From assembly GCF_000787575.1 (NCBI RefSeq), contig NW_012236516.1:321834-342534 (forward strand): a stretch of DNA of 20,701 bases. The letters run 5' to 3'. Position numbers and translations under genes: made by a program. Below the pieces are notes generated by a model that was not told the origin of the DNA, did not search any database, and saw only the letters and a program-made list of their open reading frames with translations. Positions 2,770 to 20,701 of the stretch are shown one piece after another. The number at the start of each line of letters is the position of its first letter. Position 1 is the stretch's first letter. This stretch comes from Acytostelium subglobosum LB1. Lineage: Eukaryota > Evosea > Eumycetozoa > Acytosteliales > Acytosteliaceae.

Positions 2770-3882
2770 TCAATGTCCATTGCTTGGTTGTGGACAACCA
2801 GGAAGTTTGGCAAACTCATACTTGATGTCGACATAGGGGAAGTTGAGATCAAGTCGATAGTAGTTGCCCTTGTCATCGTAGAAGTACTTCTTGAGATCGA
2901 ATATGGACATCACCTGCTTGATCACATCAATGAATGATTCTCCCTTGGTGAAGTGGAACACTTCAAAGAACTTGAGTATATCCTCTTTCTCCTCTTTGAA
3001 GCTTATCATCACAGGTTTGCTCGAGTAGATATTGATGTAGTCTCTCTTGAATACAGTATCACATTCAAATGTTGAACCAAGACTATAAAGGTATTCGACG
3101 CCAGCCACTACAAAGTCATCACAAGTTGATGACTGAAGGTACAAGTTGTCTCCAAAGCTGTCCCATACATCCCAAGTCTGGTAGTCTATTATTTGAACAT
3201 GATTGATTAGGTCAATGATTGATTGATTGATTGAATCAACGATAAGTAACTTACTAGGGTTGGTGTCATTGTATGATAACATCCATTGACTGAACTTGTT
3301 GAATGTTGCACCATTGATTGTTGAAAGATAGGTCAATGATGCACTGGGGAAGATGCTTGGATCCCAATAAGTCAGGTTGACCGATGGGAATGTGCACAGG
3401 GTACCCTTGTTACACCAAAGTAACTCCTTGGTACCATTGACTTCGACAATGTTTGGGAATGATCCATTGAGTACCTCATAGTATGCATCATACTCTGCTG
3501 TATAGTTCATACCAGTTGTCTGGTCAAAGAATCCCAATGCAGAGTGGAAGCCACCCAATTCTCCAAACAAGTTACCATACATTGCTTCGAATATAGGTGC
3601 TTGCATATAGTACACTTTAACAACATTGTCTACATGGTGAAAGAGGAGAGGGAGGGTAAGTAAGTATGTAATGATTTGATTGTTTGATTGATTGAATGAT
3701 TATTTACCATCTGATACAGGATCGAAACCTGTAGAGATCACAGGGCAATCTTCACGAGGATGTAATTGTTTACAATATAATGGATCATTATTTGGTAATG
3801 ATGCATTGGACACTGCCAAGTTGATTGTTATAACAATGGCAATGTATAATAATGATGTTGCCCAAAGGCATTTACCCATCAT
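2770..3882 (-). CDS. cln5: CLN5-like lysosomal protein
   Basis: A 321-residue protein from exons 3882-3708, 3629-3255 and 3185-2770. Introns (78 and 69 bp, GTAAAT...TAG and GTAAGT...TAG) fall exactly where frames switch. Residues 1-28 form a hydrophobic signal peptide. The mature part resembles human CLN5: MQAPIFEAMYGNLFGEL, HSALGF, ELLWCNKGTLCTF, then STCDDF and a C-terminal LNFPYVDIKYEFAKLP. Several N-x-S/T sequons fit a glycosylated lysosomal protein. CLN5 is the neuronal ceroid lipofuscinosis 5 protein, reported to make bis(monoacylglycero)phosphate and to act as a Cys-based thioesterase. Its proposed catalytic His and Cys correspond here to His87 and Cys205. A promoter region is shared head to head with the ABHD11-like gene. 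Confidence 0.87.
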
Positions 3883-6057: not shown

Positions 6058-6157
6058 ATTCATTCATTCCAACATATATACATATATTAATTAATTAATA
6101 TAAAACACATATATACTCTTTCATTTTATTACAAATAATATTATAAAATAACAAACA

Positions 6158-6559
6158 ATGTCTGATGCCAAAGTAGAACATAAGGAGGAGCATAAGGAGG
6201 AGCACAAGGTCGAGGCCCATAAGGACGAGCATAAGGACAAGGACCATAAGGATAAGAAGGACAAGAAGGATAAGAAGGATAAGGAGGGCAAGGAGCATAA
6301 GGATAAGGAGGGAAAGAAGGAGAAGAAGGACAAGGAGCATAAGGACAAGGAGGGTAAAGAGCACAAGGATAAGGAGGGCAAAGAGCACAAGGATAAGGAG
6401 CACAAGGAAGGCAAAGAGCACAAGGACAAGGAAGGCAAGGAGCACAAGGACAAGGAAGGAAAGAAGGAGAAGAAGGACAAGGAGCACAAGGACAAGGAGG
6501 GAAAGAAGGACAAGGAAGGAAAGAAGGACAAGGAGCACAAGGAGAAGGAGAAGCATTAA
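6158..6559 (+). CDS. Highly charged K/E/D/H/G repeat protein
   Basis: An intronless 133-residue protein, no recognised family. After residue 20 it uses only Lys, His, Asp, Glu and Gly. Repeats are variants of EHKDKEGK, with KDKKDKKDK near the N-terminus and EGKKEKKDK later. It has no Cys, aromatic or, past Val18, any hydrophobic residue, so it cannot fold around a core; it should be a disordered polyampholyte, very soluble, with some helical or metal-binding tendency through His. The start is well supported: an AT-rich leader ending AACAAACA before ATG and TCT as second codon, as in dictyostelid genes. Composition recalls hydrophilin/LEA-type desiccation protectants, but that is inference. 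Long open frames on the opposite strand are by-products of the repetitive AAG/GAG codons. Confidence 0.85.
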   Translation: MSDAKVEHKEEHKEEHKVEAHKDEHKDKDHKDKKDKKDKKDKEGKEHKDKEGKKEKKDKEHKDKEGKEHKDKEGKEHKDKEHKEGKEHKDKEGKEHKDKEGKKEKKDKEHKDKEGKKDKEGKKDKEHKEKEKH

Positions 6560-6684
6560 GCACTCATTACATCCATCCAACAACATCTCGCCTAGAAACA
6601 TCATCATTAACATTTGATTGATGTGTCCACAACCTGTTCTGGAGCTGTTCTAGCTGGACCACCCAGTGCAGTACTGACTGATCT

Positions 6685-13628: not shown

Positions 13629-14710
13629 ATGATGTCTACAACTACAACAATAGCAGCAACATCTGCTGAGAAGGATTCACTGTTACCATGGGTAGAGAAG
13701 TATAGACCCAAAGAAATCAAAGACATTGTTGGAAATGAAGAGACTGTCTCTCGTCTACAAAGTATATCAAAGGATGGCAATCTACCAAATATCATTATAT
13801 CCGTATGATCAAACATTCATATATATACTTGATTGATCATTCATACTCATACTCAATCAATCTACTTCTACAGGGTCCACCAGGTACAGGTAAAACAACT
13901 AGTATACTATGTCTTGCACAAGCATTGCTGGGACCAAACTATAGAGATGCTGTATATGAGTTGAATGCATCGGATGATCGTACGTTGGATGTTGTACGTG
14001 ACAAGATCAAGTCGTTTGCACAAAAGAAGGTGACACTGCCACCTGGACGACACAAGATCATCATTCTAGACGAGGCGGACAGTATGACATCGGGCGCACA
14101 ACAAGCACTGCGTCGTATCATGGAGATATACTCGTCGACCACACGTTTCGCACTGGCGTGCAATCAGTCGACCAAGATCATCGAGCCCATCCAATCGAGA
14201 TGTGCCGTGCTGCGATACACACGTCTCTCTGACTCGCAGATCCTCAAGCGTCTGCTCGAGGTGATTGCGGCCGAGGGCGTGCCACACACCAACGACGGCC
14301 TCGAGTCGATCATCTTCTCGGCCGAAGGTGATATGCGTCAGGCGCTCAACAACCTCCAGTCAACATTCACAGGCTTTGAGCTGGTCAATGCCGAAAACGT
14401 CTTCAAGGTGTGCGACCAACCGCACCCAGTCATTGTACAGAACACGCTGCTCAAGTGTGCCGAGGGCAACTTCAAGGAAGCCTACGACTTTACCAAGGCC
14501 CTGTACGCCAAGGGCTACAGTCCAATCGATATCATCACCACATTCTTCAAGGTGGCCAAGAGTTTGTCGCTGCCCGAGTACCAGAAGCTCGAGTTCCTCA
14601 AAGAGATTGGTAACACCAACATGCGAGTGTCTGCCGGTGTTAACTCACTACTGCAGCTCTCTGGTCTGCTTGCCAGACTCTGTAGTATCTCTTTGTCTAT
14701 TAAGAAATAA
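13629..14710 (+). CDS. rfc2: Replication factor C subunit 2
   Basis: A 336-residue AAA+ clamp-loader subunit from exons 13629-13802 and 13874-14710; the 71-bp intron falls just before the Walker A motif. RFC loads PCNA at primer-template junctions. Motifs are the RFC box [19 protein letters not shown], Walker [11 protein letters not shown] (residues 59-68), ELNASDDR, Walker [11 protein letters not shown], the arginine-finger SRC in [22 protein letters not shown] and the C-terminal collar with [16 protein letters not shown]. The match to human RFC2 (yeast Rfc4) is close along the whole length, including [23 protein letters not shown] 13632 follows immediately and is an alternative start. Codon use is markedly GC-richer in exon 2. 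It converges with the LAMTOR4-like gene 151 bp downstream. Confidence 0.96.
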
Positions 14711-14861
14711 AGTCAACTACCCTGAGACCAACATTCATTCGAGTCTATAGTCTCATTCAGTCTCGCTGTCTATAACTTCAAACACCTGTTATAGGTGTCT
14801 GTTGCTGTTTTATTGTGGAGGTAGGTGATGCTAACGTGTCTGACAAGATGAAAGAACCAAG

Positions 14862-15350
14862 TTACTGTACAACAACAAACACCTTGTTGTTTGCAATGGA
14901 CACTACGTAGGTTTGATCCGAGTATATAACTGTATGAATGATTGAATGATTGAGTAAATGAACATGAGTGAATGAACTAATGAATGAGATTGCCCAACAC
15001 TGTGATCAAACATACGTGACAATCTCTTGAAGTCCTGCTTGTTTGAAGATGTGATGATATTGATATCTTGCAGCATTGATAGGATGGTCTTGGCAAACTC
15101 CTTCTTCTCTGATTGCAATACACCAGCGCTCTATAAAGTATTTGTACAATGTGATGTCAGTCGCATGTTCATAACCTGTCAAACATGGCCAGTAGTCATC
15201 AATCAATCTGTCTGTCCATTTGTATGAATGAATGAATGACACTGCCTGTCAGTCCTGTCTACCTGTTTATCAACATACAGAGAGTATATTGGCTTCGAAA
15301 TCCAAGGTCATTGAACCCTTAAAGTCCTTCAAGATATCTGATTCGCTCAT
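14862..15350 (-). CDS. lamtor4: LAMTOR4-like Ragulator subunit
   Basis: An 84-residue protein split into three short exons: 15350-15279 (24 codons), 15130-15016 and 14929-14862. Introns are 148 and 86 bp (GTATGT...ATAG, GTATGT...ACAG). All phases agree and the stop is TAA. The C-terminal part FKRLSLIYSDQTYVVSIANN followed by KVFVVV parallels human LAMTOR4 (FKRLSVVF...VTV...RVFVV). The N-terminal half has the ILSSAGVLQSE...AKTILSML pattern of the same roadblock-like fold. LAMTOR4 is one of five Ragulator subunits that anchor Rag GTPases on lysosomes for TORC1 signalling. Length is slightly below the human 99 residues. The acceptor of intron 1 is the least certain point; other AGs break the frame. 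Confidence 0.75.
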
Positions 15351-16139: not shown

Positions 16140-18194
16140 ATGGTCGAATCAAATAATAATAATAATGATGTTCCACCAACACCAGATATTCAACAACAAC
16201 ATGATCACGATGTTGATCATGATGAAAGGAAATATCATAATCAGAATAGTATAGAGAGTATAGAGTTGGATATATTATCATCATCACCAAATAAGAATAA
16301 CGATCATGAATGCAACGACGAAGAATACCAAGACGACTTGGATATAGGTGCAGACGAAATCGAATCAACAACATATTATCATCCAGATGGAAAGAAGAAA
16401 TCATCATCTCGCTATTGCCAACTTATTAAACCAAGTGACAAAGAGTCTGAGACCGACCAAACCGTGCTGATACCAAATGAGTATGTCTAGTCTCATCTGG
16501 ATTTCCGACGCGACCCCACAGCACGGTCGACCATTCATTCGGCTCGGACCATCACCATTCCTAATAAGGCAACTCCTCCACATCAACTAGGAACAAAGGC
16601 TTTAGTATCAAGAAACTATTCAGCTTCCTTGGACCGGCAGTCTTTGTTTCAATTGGGTACATGGACCCAGGCAACTGTACGTGTATCATTCCAAAGATGG
16701 CGCCAATCCAACTCATATTCTGACACAATCAATCAATCTCAAACAGGGGCGACAGACTTGGAGGGAGGTAGTAGATTTGGATACCAACTGGTATGGGTAT
16801 TGCTTATGAGTAATATTATGGCCATGTTGTTACAGATACTTTCGTTTAAGATTGCGTTGGTCACGAAGAAGGACTTGGCTCAGATGTGTGGATCAGAATT
16901 CCCAAAGGCTATCAAGTATGTGTTGTGGGTCATCATTGAGATTGCAATCACATCGACAGACTTGGCCGAGGTCATTGGTACGGCCGTAGCACTGCAGATT
17001 CTGTTTGGAATACCATTGATTGCTGGAGTCCTCATCACTGCCCTGGACACACTGCTCTTCCTACTCATTCAGCGATGGGGCATTCGCAAGCTCGAGTTCA
17101 TCGTACTCGGACTACTCACAATCATTGCCTTTTGCTTCATTGTCGAGTTGTTCATGAGCAAGCCCAACGCAAAGGACGTGTTTAAAGGATTCATCCCAAC
17201 GCTGTCCAAGGACAGTATCATGCCTGCCATCGGTATCATTGGTGCGACGATCATGCCACACAATCTATTCCTACACAGTGGCGTTGTCAAGTCTCGCAAG
17301 ATTGGCAAAGACAATGCATCAGTCAGGCAAGCATTCAAATATAACATTATCGATACAGTGGTTGCCCTCAACACTGCATTCTTTGTCAATGCATCGATCA
17401 TCATTTGTAAGTTACCCAGTCAAGTCATCTTCCACCACTTGGATTGACACCCATCCCTCCCTCCATCCAATCATAGTGGCTGGTGCCGTCTTTTATGAGA
17501 ATGGCGTGGAGGTATCAGATCTGAGCGATGCTTATAAGCTGTTGGAGAATATTATGAACTCAAAGGTGGCATCTATAATGTTTGGTGTTGGATTGCTATG
17601 TGCTGGACAGGCTTCAACCATCACCGGTACAATGGCAGGACAGATTGTAATGGAGGGATTCATACAGATTAAGCTACCCCCTTGGGTACGGCGACTTGTC
17701 ACTCGATTGTTGGCCATCATCCCAGCAGTCATTGTCATTCTTGCAATGGGTCCTAGTCAAGTGTACAACCTATTGATCATCTCCCAAGTCATCCTATCAA
17801 TTGCCCTACCCTTCGCAATCGTTCCACTTATCAAGTTCACCTCTGATCGAGAGATCATGGGTGAGTTTGTCAACAGGATATGGGTAAGTTAAACGCCAAT
17901 CACTCATTCAATAATATGACATGGACTAACACTTTCCTTTCATTCTTAAAGATAACCGTTGCAGCAATCATAATTGCATTGATATTGATTGGATTGAACA
18001 TGATGGCTATTGTTCAGTTGATTCAAGAACTGATCGAGACGGGTTTGGTTGCAGCCATCCTCACGTATATATTTATTGTGCCACTGGTTGTGGCGTTTGT
18101 ACTGCTACTGGTATGGGTCATCTTTTACAAGCAGACTCCAACCATTATCAAGTTCATCAAATGTAGGGTCCTTGGGGGTGTTGGAACTTATTAG
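16140..18194 (+). CDS. nramp: NRAMP divalent metal transporter
   Basis: A 578-residue proton-coupled Fe/Mn transporter from exons 16140-16480, 16591-16676, 16747-17406, 17477-17883 and 17952-18194; introns are 110, 70, 70, 70 and 68 bp counting the four gaps as 110, 70, 70 and 68. The metal-site motifs are intact: DPGNW in TM1 (SIGYMDPGN, spanning the exon 2/3 junction) and IMPHNLFLHS in TM6. About 11-12 hydrophobic segments follow, with GQASTITGTMAGQ in TM9-10. In D. discoideum NRAMP proteins act on phagosomes and the contractile vacuole and restrict intracellular bacteria. The first ~145 residues form a polar, Asn/Asp/Glu/Ser-rich cytosolic extension with DHDVDHDE. DPGNWATDLEGGS is closer to MntH/plant-type than to animal NRAMP (DPGNIESD). 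The last 38 coding bases overlap the opposite FNIP gene. Confidence 0.93.
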
Positions 18195-19473
18195 TAATAA
18201 AGGATGACACTCTTGAATGTACTTTGGAGACCATTTGTCGAAAGGCTATTGTCTTTGGCTTCAATGATTCATCGTCAAGGTCTGGTGATGTTGGAATGTG
18301 ATCAAATAGTGTTGGTCCACTCTTGTGAGTGTGCCTCAGAGTAAAGAGTACTTGTGCCGGTTGTCTTGGCAGGCGGTCCATCAATCGGAACTTGAACACT
18401 GTTTCCTTGTAGTATGAATTGCCGTCCACGTATAGGTGTATAGTTTGAACACCTGGAAACTTGTGATGGAAGTAACTGTAGAGCTCCATGAATCGGATGT
18501 ATGATGTGAACAATCGAATGTTTGTTGTGATCTCCAATATCTTGAGACCCTGAGTAGGTTGGATTGGATCGAAATTCCTTGGTTCAACGTATGGTCTTTG
18601 AACTATTAGATGTTCAATACTATGAGGCTTGCAAGTGAGGTAGCATAGTTGTGTAACATTGTGAATGTTTAATCTTTGAAGATTGGCTGGGAATGATACC
18701 ATGTCGACATTGGCCAATTGTTTGAAATGCTCACCAATAGTCAACTCTGTGAGAGACATTGGCAACACATCTGGTGATAATGGTTGATTGTAGCCCTGAC
18801 CAAGAACCAATGAGGTGATTGATGATGGTAGTATTCCAGGGTTGATCGGTTTGAGGTAATATATACCCAAAGACAACTGGGTCAAAGTGGAGGGTAGTGT
18901 ATTCTTTTTGAAAGTATGGTCATATAGATTACCAAATGTAAGCGATTTGAGTGAAGGTGGAAGTACCCTTGGCTCCAAGGGTTGATCAAAGTGATCTCCA
19001 AATGATAGACTTGTGAGTGATGATGGTAAACATCCATGGTCTATTGGTTGATTGAATGATGTTCCAAATAGAATTGATTTTAATGTATCTGGTAGGAGTC
19101 CAGGTGTAATGTACTCATTGATCAATCCACCAAAGATAAGTGATTTTGTGTTGGAGGGTATTGAGTGGCTGTTGAACATCAATGTGTTCTCCACGATGTA
19201 GGTGTCGTTGGACTTTGGGTCATTACCAGAGTTGATGATGAAAGGATTTCTTTGGGTCATATTTATAACTTGGCATATTGGTTGATAAGGTTGACAATAA
19301 CAATACTTCTCAGACATTCGCTTATAGGATTGTGGAGTACGATTATAGTTGAATCTTGATTTACTCTTTACTAGTTTCAAGTATCTCTTTGAAGTGCATT
19401 TGAAACAAAATGTATCAATCTCATCAATCATTGAGAGAATATTACAAACTATTATATCAGGCAATAAATCCAT
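18157..19473 (-). CDS. FNIP-repeat protein with F-box-like N-terminus
   Basis: An intronless 438-residue member of the dictyostelid-expanded FNIP (LRR-like) family. Residues 1-40 (LLPDIIVCNILSMIDEIDTF...) have the Leu-Pro-x2-I spacing of an F-box-like segment. Roughly seven 22-residue FNIP units occupy about 104-265, such as LPSSLTSLSFGDHFDQPLEP and LPSSITSLVLGQGYNQPLSP. A ~170-residue C-terminal region follows with no repeat. The start is preceded by an A-rich leader (CAAATACAAATG). Individual functions are mostly unknown; substrate recognition for ubiquitin ligases is a guess from the F-box-like start. It is in tandem with another FNIP gene, 156 bp apart. Confidence 0.9.
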   Translation of the reverse strand: MDLLPDIIVCNILSMIDEIDTFCFKCTSKRYLKLVKSKSRFNYNRTPQSYKRMSEKYCYCQPYQPICQVINMTQRNPFIINSGNDPKSNDTYIVENTLMFNSHSIPSNTKSLIFGGLINEYITPGLLPDTLKSILFGTSFNQPIDHGCLPSSLTSLSFGDHFDQPLEPRVLPPSLKSLTFGNLYDHTFKKNTLPSTLTQLSLGIYYLKPINPGILPSSITSLVLGQGYNQPLSPDVLPMSLTELTIGEHFKQLANVDMVSFPANLQRLNIHNVTQLCYLTCKPHSIEHLIVQRPYVEPRNFDPIQPTQGLKILEITTNIRLFTSYIRFMELYSYFHHKFPGVQTIHLYVDGNSYYKETVFKFRLMDRLPRQPAQVLFTLRHTHKSGPTLFDHIPTSPDLDDESLKPKTIAFRQMVSKVHSRVSSFITNKFQHPQGPYI

Positions 19474-19629
19474 TTGTATTTGAAAGTATATATATATTGT
19501 ATTATTATTACATGTATGATGAAAATAAATGATTGATTCATTCTTCTAGATTGATCACTAATTTCAAAGGTTAGCCTACCCTGGTATGAAATTCAATGAA
19601 AATGATGACAGGAATTCTTAATCAGATGA

Positions 19630-20701
19630 TCACAAATGATGTTGGAACATTGAGATTGTTAAGAATGGAATGTGGGGTATCTTGACATGTCGTTGACCAT
19701 CAACAGATGATGATGAATCGATAATACATCTTCCAAATAAAAAGGTACCTAATATTTGATTGTAGACCATATATGTATCTTCCTCTATCATCCTAACATA
19801 TAGTACCAATGATCGATAGAAGCCATAGCAACGTATTACATTGTTTGGGATTGTTGGATAGATTGGCTGTAGTTTGTAGCCTCTAAGATCATGTGGAACG
19901 TTCAATGTTAAAGTCTTTAAATTGATCAATGATTCAATCTTCTCAAGCTTAGTGATTCCCAAACAATTTAGACTTAGCTCAGTTACTGATTGGGGTATGA
20001 CACCATCACATAGTCTTGCTTGGAAGTTAGAACCAAGATTCAATCTTGTAATGGACGATGGAAGGATACCTGGCACCATATCATCTTGATTGAACCATTC
20101 ACCAAAGTGAAGACTTTGCACTGATTCAGGTATTGATCCAACTTCCAAAGTACAATGGAATGAGCCTTCCAAATAGAGATTGTTCACTGATGACGGTATA
20201 TCTCCTGGTTTCAATTCTTGGTTGAAATCATAGAGTATCAAAGTTATAATATGTTGTGGAATCATTCCAGGTGACAATGGTTGACCAAGGTTAAATAGTG
20301 TAAGATGTGTGAGAGAGCGAGGGAATGTTCGGTTCGCGTTGAGTCTTAGGAGAGTTTGATCATCGATGCGAGATAGAGACAATCTTGTCAGATTCGGTAA
20401 AGAGCCAATGTCGTTGAGATGATCAAGTCCAAAATCTAATCCAAGTGAGAGATTCTTGATTGATAAAGGGAATAGATTGGTACCATCAATGTCAAATAAT
20501 GGTTGATCGAAATAATCGCTCATCGTTAGGGATTGGACTGATTCGGGGATGGAGCCCTTGTTCAATTGATTGAATCTATATTCAAGTGATAGATTTTTTA
20601 CAGATGTTGGTATCTGTCCACTGACAAGGTCTTGTCCAAAGAAACTTCCAAAGGAGAGGGTTGTAACACTTGTTGGTATGACACCTAGAGGGTCCAATGG
20701 T
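19630..20701 (-). CDS. FNIP-repeat protein, 5' truncated by window
   Basis: A C-terminal fragment of about 356 residues; the frame stays open to the window edge, where PLDPLGVIPTSVTTLSFG is already mid-repeat, so the N-terminus lies beyond 20701. About eleven FNIP units are visible, several degenerate: IPTSVKNLSLEYRFNQLN, IPESVQSLTMSDYFDQPL, IPSSVNNLYLEGSFHCTL, LPSSITRLNLGSNFQARL, IPQSVTELSLNCLG. A ~110-residue non-repeat tail ends in ISMFQHHL. The repeat series resembles the neighbour on the same strand, implying tandem duplication, but the tails share little obvious sequence. Confidence 0.9.
   Translation of the reverse strand, partial: PLDPLGVIPTSVTTLSFGSFFGQDLVSGQIPTSVKNLSLEYRFNQLNKGSIPESVQSLTMSDYFDQPLFDIDGTNLFPLSIKNLSLGLDFGLDHLNDIGSLPNLTRLSLSRIDDQTLLRLNANRTFPRSLTHLTLFNLGQPLSPGMIPQHIITLILYDFNQELKPGDIPSSVNNLYLEGSFHCTLEVGSIPESVQSLHFGEWFNQDDMVPGILPSSITRLNLGSNFQARLCDGVIPQSVTELSLNCLGITKLEKIESLINLKTLTLNVPHDLRGYKLQPIYPTIPNNVIRCYGFYRSLVLYVRMIEEDTYMVYNQILGTFLFGRCIIDSSSSVDGQRHVKIPHIPFLTISMFQHHL

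Follow-up and report, generated by a model that had tools for sequence, protein, structure and literature searches.

The closest described counterpart of the gene studied here is human LAMTOR4 (C7orf59; PDB 5X6U, 5VOK). LAMTOR4 is one of the five subunits of Ragulator, the scaffold that in other cells couples nutrient signaling with the lysosome. In the human complex, LAMTOR4 and LAMTOR5 make up an incomplete roadblock dimer; once it has bound and stabilized LAMTOR1, LAMTOR2–LAMTOR3 join and the Rag GTPases are bound (PMC6722880, PMC5680233). LAMTOR5 (HBXIP, PF16672) is described as a sister subunit of the same incomplete roadblock type (PMC5680233). In yeast (Ego2/Ego4, PF11503) and fission yeast (Lam4), the Rag scaffold of the vacuole likewise contains small roadblock proteins (PMC4860963, PMC6722880, PMC5752196). 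The PF11503 family Ego2/Ego4 is given as the LAMTOR4/5 counterpart in PMC6722880 and is tabulated as Ego2 in PMC11836306, where S. pombe Lam4 is equated with LAMTOR5 and not with LAMTOR4. By the account of fungi in PMC11836306, LAMTOR4 is absent there save for one chytrid representative. A putative Ragulator of Dictyostelium discoideum has already been drawn and Lamtor1 localized (PMC5407849), and D. discoideum LAMTOR1 is named in PMC8584165. Amoeba LAMTOR4 is not treated in the relevant passages of the papers examined that pair LAMTOR4 with Dictyostelium. A dictyostelid LAMTOR4 may well already be annotated in UniProt or dictyBase.

Here we analyze a short split gene of Acytostelium subglobosum. 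We consider it very probable that the locus is a protein-coding, three-exon LAMTOR4 gene, and that its product would adopt an incomplete roadblock fold, pair with LAMTOR5, hold LAMTOR1 and serve the recruitment of Rag GTPases and TORC1 at the lysosome. The gene adds one more member to a known family; with the other four subunits also encoded in the genome, its discovery is sound but was to be expected.

Exon structure of the gene

The gene lies on the minus strand of the window, the whole stretch of 20,701 nucleotides that was analyzed (G000:C40:321834-342534). Its structure is read directly from the DNA: exons of 72, 115 and 68 nt, joined at GT/AG sites, give a coding sequence of 255 nt, comprising 84 codons and a TAA stop (Table 1). 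An in-frame stop immediately precedes the start codon. Only two GTA(A/T)G sites occur on the minus strand in the 700 bases scanned, and these are the two donors used. The earlier note had proposed three exons, none longer than 40 codons, spliced at GT/AG sites with matching phases into an 84-residue protein. All of its coordinates check, the longest exon has no more than 39 codons, and the protein was reproduced from the DNA with phases 0 and 1 and the TAA stop; the intron lengths (148 and 86 nt) are not divisible by three. We infer that the transcript is spliced in this way in the cell.

The note had also stated that ordinary ORF calling misses the gene. A six-frame search of the genome (30.7 Mb, 56 contigs) with the human LAMTOR4 domain returned nothing at E ≤ 10, a result that fits a gene missed by ORF calling but that, without a positive control, shows little by its emptiness.

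Table 1 Positions of the LAMTOR4 exons, adjoining features and two putative partner genes.
Feature	Position	Strand	Description
LAMTOR4 exon 1	15279..15350	-	72 nt, 24 codons; start codon at 15350; MSESDILKDFKGSMTLDFEANILS
Intron 1	15131..15278	-	GTATGT...TTATAG; 148 nt, phase 0
LAMTOR4 exon 2	15016..15130	-	115 nt; residues 25-62 (KRLS at end) and base 1 of codon 63
Intron 2	14930..15015	-	GTATGT...ATACAG; 86 nt, phase 1
LAMTOR4 exon 3	14862..14929	-	68 nt including stop TAA; LIYSDQTYVVSIANNKVFVVVQ; acceptor chosen by homology, not codon usage
AATAAA, possible poly(A) signal	14809..14814	-	~48 nt 3' of stop; consensus match only
Replication factor C small-subunit ORF, convergent neighbour	13805..14710	+	Rep_fac_C 90.8 bits, AAA 50.8 bits
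Putative LAMTOR5 gene	G000:C38, ~279733-280006		short exons; PF16672; span without last exon
Putative LAMTOR1 gene	G000:C28, ~279028		three exons; MGC start; phmmer to LAMTOR1 E 4.2e-6

A codon-usage measure derived from eight long ORFs of the window provided a view of the gene in which no homology was used. By this measure alone the best models include exons 1 and 2. The full three-exon model ranked 9th of 81, because other exon-3 acceptors scored slightly better, and 10th of 500 when looser donors were admitted. Codon usage thus singles out exons 1 and 2 only and does not confirm that the whole gene stands out; as it leaves exon 3 unsettled, exon 3 rests on homology. It is conceivable, though quite improbable, that exons 1 and 2 are correct and that exon 3 uses a different acceptor, which would give the protein another C-terminus. 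Acceptors before 14830 or 14804 are indeed favored by codon usage (24.4 and 22.7 versus 21.1 bits). However, these differences are small, and among the listed models only the acceptor of the 14929 exon gives LIYSDQTYVVSIANNKVFVV, which runs without a gap to the end of the LAMTOR4 alignment.

Similarity to LAMTOR4 and its controls

The homology of the three-exon product to LAMTOR4 is read directly from its sequence. With the fixed spliced product as query, phmmer listed ten matches at E ≤ 10 among 177635 distinct sequences of the PDB. Nine of these were LAMTOR4 (E 0.0021–0.0044) and the tenth was a designed protein (E 1.2); no other roadblock protein, LAMTOR5 included, was among the ten. The earlier note had assigned only the C-terminal half to LAMTOR4. 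The match itself stands, whereas its extent was understated: it covers residues 12–82 and hence nearly the whole protein, spans all three exons and stops where the LAMTOR4 domain stops.

Consistently, BLASTP with the human LAMTOR4 domain gave 19 identical (28%) and 39 positive (58%) positions out of 67. The alignment passes both splice junctions without a gap and keeps the FKRLS and VFVV blocks. Intron 1 interrupts ILS/SAGVL, paired with human VLA/SSGDL, and intron 2 interrupts FKRLS/LIYSDQT, paired with human FKRLS/VVFGEHT (slashes mark the junctions). The domains are similar in length, the human pair Ser67/Arg65 corresponds to Ser62/Arg60, and the alignment contains gaps of 1, 2 and 3 residues. 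The two proteins differ at their ends: 16 residues precede the aligned domain in the human protein versus 11 in the amoeba protein, and 12 follow it in the human 99-residue chain versus 2. By its sequence the product is a LAMTOR4 homologue (IPR034601), and the description of it as a diverged one is supported by phmmer, by BLASTP and by its specificity over other roadblock queries (see below).

A Pfam scan of the product gave four matches, all below cut-off. Three were to unrelated models, namely DUF4883 (E 0.0039, 18 bits, cut-off 27.1), CDC73_N (E 0.0052, 16.6 bits, cut-off 27) and Closter_coat (E 0.05). The fourth was to the Ego2/Ego4 roadblock family PF11503 (E 0.07), with residues 6–35 of the product on profile positions 4–33, at nearly equal distance from the N-terminus; at 13.5 bits this match stays under the cut-off of 25, a point of difference from yeast Ego2/Ego4. 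No Pfam model matched the human LAMTOR4 domain at E ≤ 10, and therefore Pfam could not have shown LAMTOR4 membership of the product. Because DUF4883 and CDC73_N reach similar E-values, the phmmer result against the PDB is not decisive alone.

Since splice sites can be picked to suit a match, we used a control in which the human LAMTOR4 domain was aligned to genomic DNA with free splicing (GT..AG introns of 50–300 nt, penalty 14). At the locus the domain scored 53 on a stretch of 1040 bases. Other roadblock queries, comprising part of human LAMTOR5, amoeba LAMTOR5, amoeba LAMTOR2 and the amoeba dynein-type roadblock protein, scored 27–32 there, the LAMTOR5 queries reaching 31–32. These scores bear on the reading that the gene encodes a different small protein of the roadblock class (LAMTOR5, Ego2-like or dynein light chain type). 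Small roadblock proteins are similar in fold, the identity to LAMTOR4 is only 28%, and the sole weak roadblock match in Pfam is PF11503; nevertheless, we hold this reading to be very improbable. Apart from the low scores of these queries, the natural PDB matches are LAMTOR4 only, and the genome has its own LAMTOR5 gene (C38), a separate LAMTOR2 gene and a putative dynein-type protein (C54).

The preferred assignment to LAMTOR4 was further compared with chance. None of 2400 shuffled queries reached 53 at the locus (mean 26.8, maximum 52), one of them coming within one point, and none of 360 pieces of 1040 bases from both strands of 20 control loci of the same genome did so (maximum 43). A Gumbel fit gave P ~7e-5 for a sequence of this length, a value that is not genome-wide significant alone. 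The locus was also compared with 42 control strands, taken from 20 loci of 10 kb and the masked window (both strands of each), and ranked first of 43 at intron penalties of 10, 14 and 18, with scores of 57, 53 and 49 versus 47, 43 and 43 for the best control strand. The alignment at penalty 5 was discarded because the masked window reached 76 versus 92 at the locus. As positive controls, pieces of human LAMTOR5 and LAMTOR1, aligned by the same method to the amoeba loci of the respective genes, scored 47 and 45.

A chance match in intergenic DNA, built by free choice of splice sites, would agree with the way in which free splicing flatters a match at a cheap intron penalty, with a control P value short of genome-wide significance and with unrelated Pfam models reaching E-values like those of LAMTOR4. 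Such an origin is nonetheless scarcely credible: codon usage recovers exons 1 and 2 without homology, the match crosses all three exons and ends at the domain end, and the Ser–Arg pair of LAMTOR4 and some partner residues are kept. A pseudogene or decayed LAMTOR4 copy has likewise next to no probability, as the frame is intact over 84 codons, the two introns have good sites, and a genome search with the product gave three matches, each an exon of this one gene (exon 2 being the best single match).

Ragulator subunits of the genome and the predicted assembly

Genes for the other Ragulator subunits were found elsewhere in the genome, and those of LAMTOR1, 2, 3 and 5 are all split by introns. LAMTOR3 scored 49.5 bits by exon in the six-frame search, above cut-off, and 101.1 bits when joined. 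The single exons of LAMTOR5 reached 25.5 and 20.4 bits, under the PF16672 cut-off of 27, versus 74.7 bits (E 6.6e-21) for the joined exons. LAMTOR2 showed 46% identity over human residues 56–122 and matched Robl_LC7 with 36.6 bits when joined, and was missed by its Pfam model in the six-frame genome search. A second LAMTOR2 match, on C50, was dropped (E 0.5). The sole six-frame PF03259 (Robl_LC7) match, C54:1222520-1222756, was rejected as LAMTOR2; it reads as a dynein-type roadblock light chain.

LAMTOR1 was harder to trace: PF15454 had no match in the genome and none in control genomes either, and a genome search with the human C-terminus was empty. A DNA pattern for ELVVxFG occurred at 5 places, no more than in the reversed control (4+1), and one of these places reads as LAMTOR1. 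Human LAMTOR1 is lipid-anchored and starts with MGC, as does the candidate. The assignment is confirmed by phmmer, which finds LAMTOR1 with the candidate at E 4.2e-6, but with its exons joined the candidate matches no Pfam model, PF15454 included. Two of its peptides, EEQPDVSYSQMR and DCGELVVFFGTSLK, are near D. discoideum LAMTOR1 phosphopeptides printed in PMC8584165. As far as can be judged from sequence, all five Ragulator subunits are encoded in the genome.

The Pfam model Gtr1_RagA had 18 matches in the genome. Two of them were strong, one of 262.7 bits on C24 and one of 195.1 bits on C28; internal stops in the C28 locus suggest an intron. By sequence, the two strong loci fit a pair of RagA type and RagC type. 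On C28, ~25 kb separate the candidate LAMTOR1 gene from the strong Rag GTPase locus at C28:253753.

Taken together, LAMTOR3 was the only subunit to pass in six-frame searches: LAMTOR5 remained below cut-off, and LAMTOR1, LAMTOR4 and, by its Pfam model, LAMTOR2 were missed; for LAMTOR4 and LAMTOR5 this is because of their introns. Protist surveys that report Ragulator subunits as missing should accordingly be read with caution, as six-frame searches can overlook them.

By analogy with the human complex, from which we infer the fold, pairing, localization and function of the product, amoeba LAMTOR4 should assemble as human LAMTOR4 does. The 84-residue product would most likely adopt an incomplete roadblock fold that lacks the C-terminal helix; its chain stops directly after VFVVVQ, as expected without the last helix. 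Its partner would be LAMTOR5, whose gene lies elsewhere in the genome, and the two together would hold lipid-anchored LAMTOR1. LAMTOR1 would then take up LAMTOR2–LAMTOR3, and the assembled Ragulator would recruit Rag GTPases and TORC1 to the lysosomal membrane.

Residues around human Ser67 support in detail the idea that amoeba LAMTOR4 works like the human protein. Human Ser67 contacts Arg65, HBXIP Glu68 and p18 Val118, Ser121 and Glu122 (PMC6722880). In our alignments Ser67 corresponds to amoeba Ser62, and three of the five named contacts are kept (Arg60, LAMTOR5 Glu68 and p18 Ser121); the other two are not, as p18 Glu122 is Gln in amoeba LAMTOR1 and Val118 lies opposite a gap. Amoeba LAMTOR1 also keeps p18 Leu119; replacing this residue by Arg impairs binding in the human protein (PMC5680233).

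Ser62 lies in a PKA-type site, K-R-L-S, that is kept in amoeba LAMTOR4. In the human system Ser67 is a PKA substrate, and once PKA is activated LAMTOR1 is released and Ragulator falls apart (PMC6722880). When TORC1 is inhibited in Dictyostelium, PKA rises by way of YakA and development begins (PMC6637605). By analogy, LAMTOR4 might serve as a PKA switch in social amoebae, although we regard this as doubtful. PKA-phosphorylated Ser62 would keep Ragulator apart and TORC1 off, and, if true, such a PKA-to-TORC1 latch would hinder cells that have gone from growth into development from turning back. However, changing Ser67 to alanine in human cells weakens the Ragulator complex too, so assembly alone may be the reason why the serine is kept; conservation by itself does not tell a regulatory role from a structural one. 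The kept PKA-type site makes feedback from PKA to TORC1 directly testable in genetically tractable relatives.

The gene had further been said to bear on the age of lysosomal TORC1 signaling. Given the near absence of LAMTOR4 from fungi in the account of PMC11836306, its presence in this genome agrees with a gene that arose early and was lost in fungi. A five-part Ragulator that included LAMTOR4 before animals, fungi and amoebae parted is thereby supported, and the fungal absence would be a loss. The argument is nonetheless weaker than was claimed and gains little, because a Ragulator had already been proposed for Dictyostelium (PMC5407849) and its LAMTOR1 already reported.

Surroundings of the gene in the window

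The LAMTOR4 gene and the replication factor C gene lie on opposite strands and are therefore arranged tail to tail; the initial residues of the replication factor C ORF may be an intron. A CLN5-like (lysosomal) protein at 2770-3615 (-) and an Nramp metal transporter at 16629-17447 (+) are encoded in the same 20 kb, and their nearness to the gene of a Ragulator subunit is probably a coincidence. Two adjacent FNIP-repeat-like ORFs occupy 18157-20700 (-), and the Pfam scan, which covered the first of them, found an F-box in it. F-box/FNIP-repeat proteins are typical of dictyostelids, and together with the two LAMTOR1 peptides this one gives the genome a dictyostelid look. At 6095-6613, a low-complexity stretch is open in several frames on both strands, with HKDKEGK repeats on the plus strand (133 aa).
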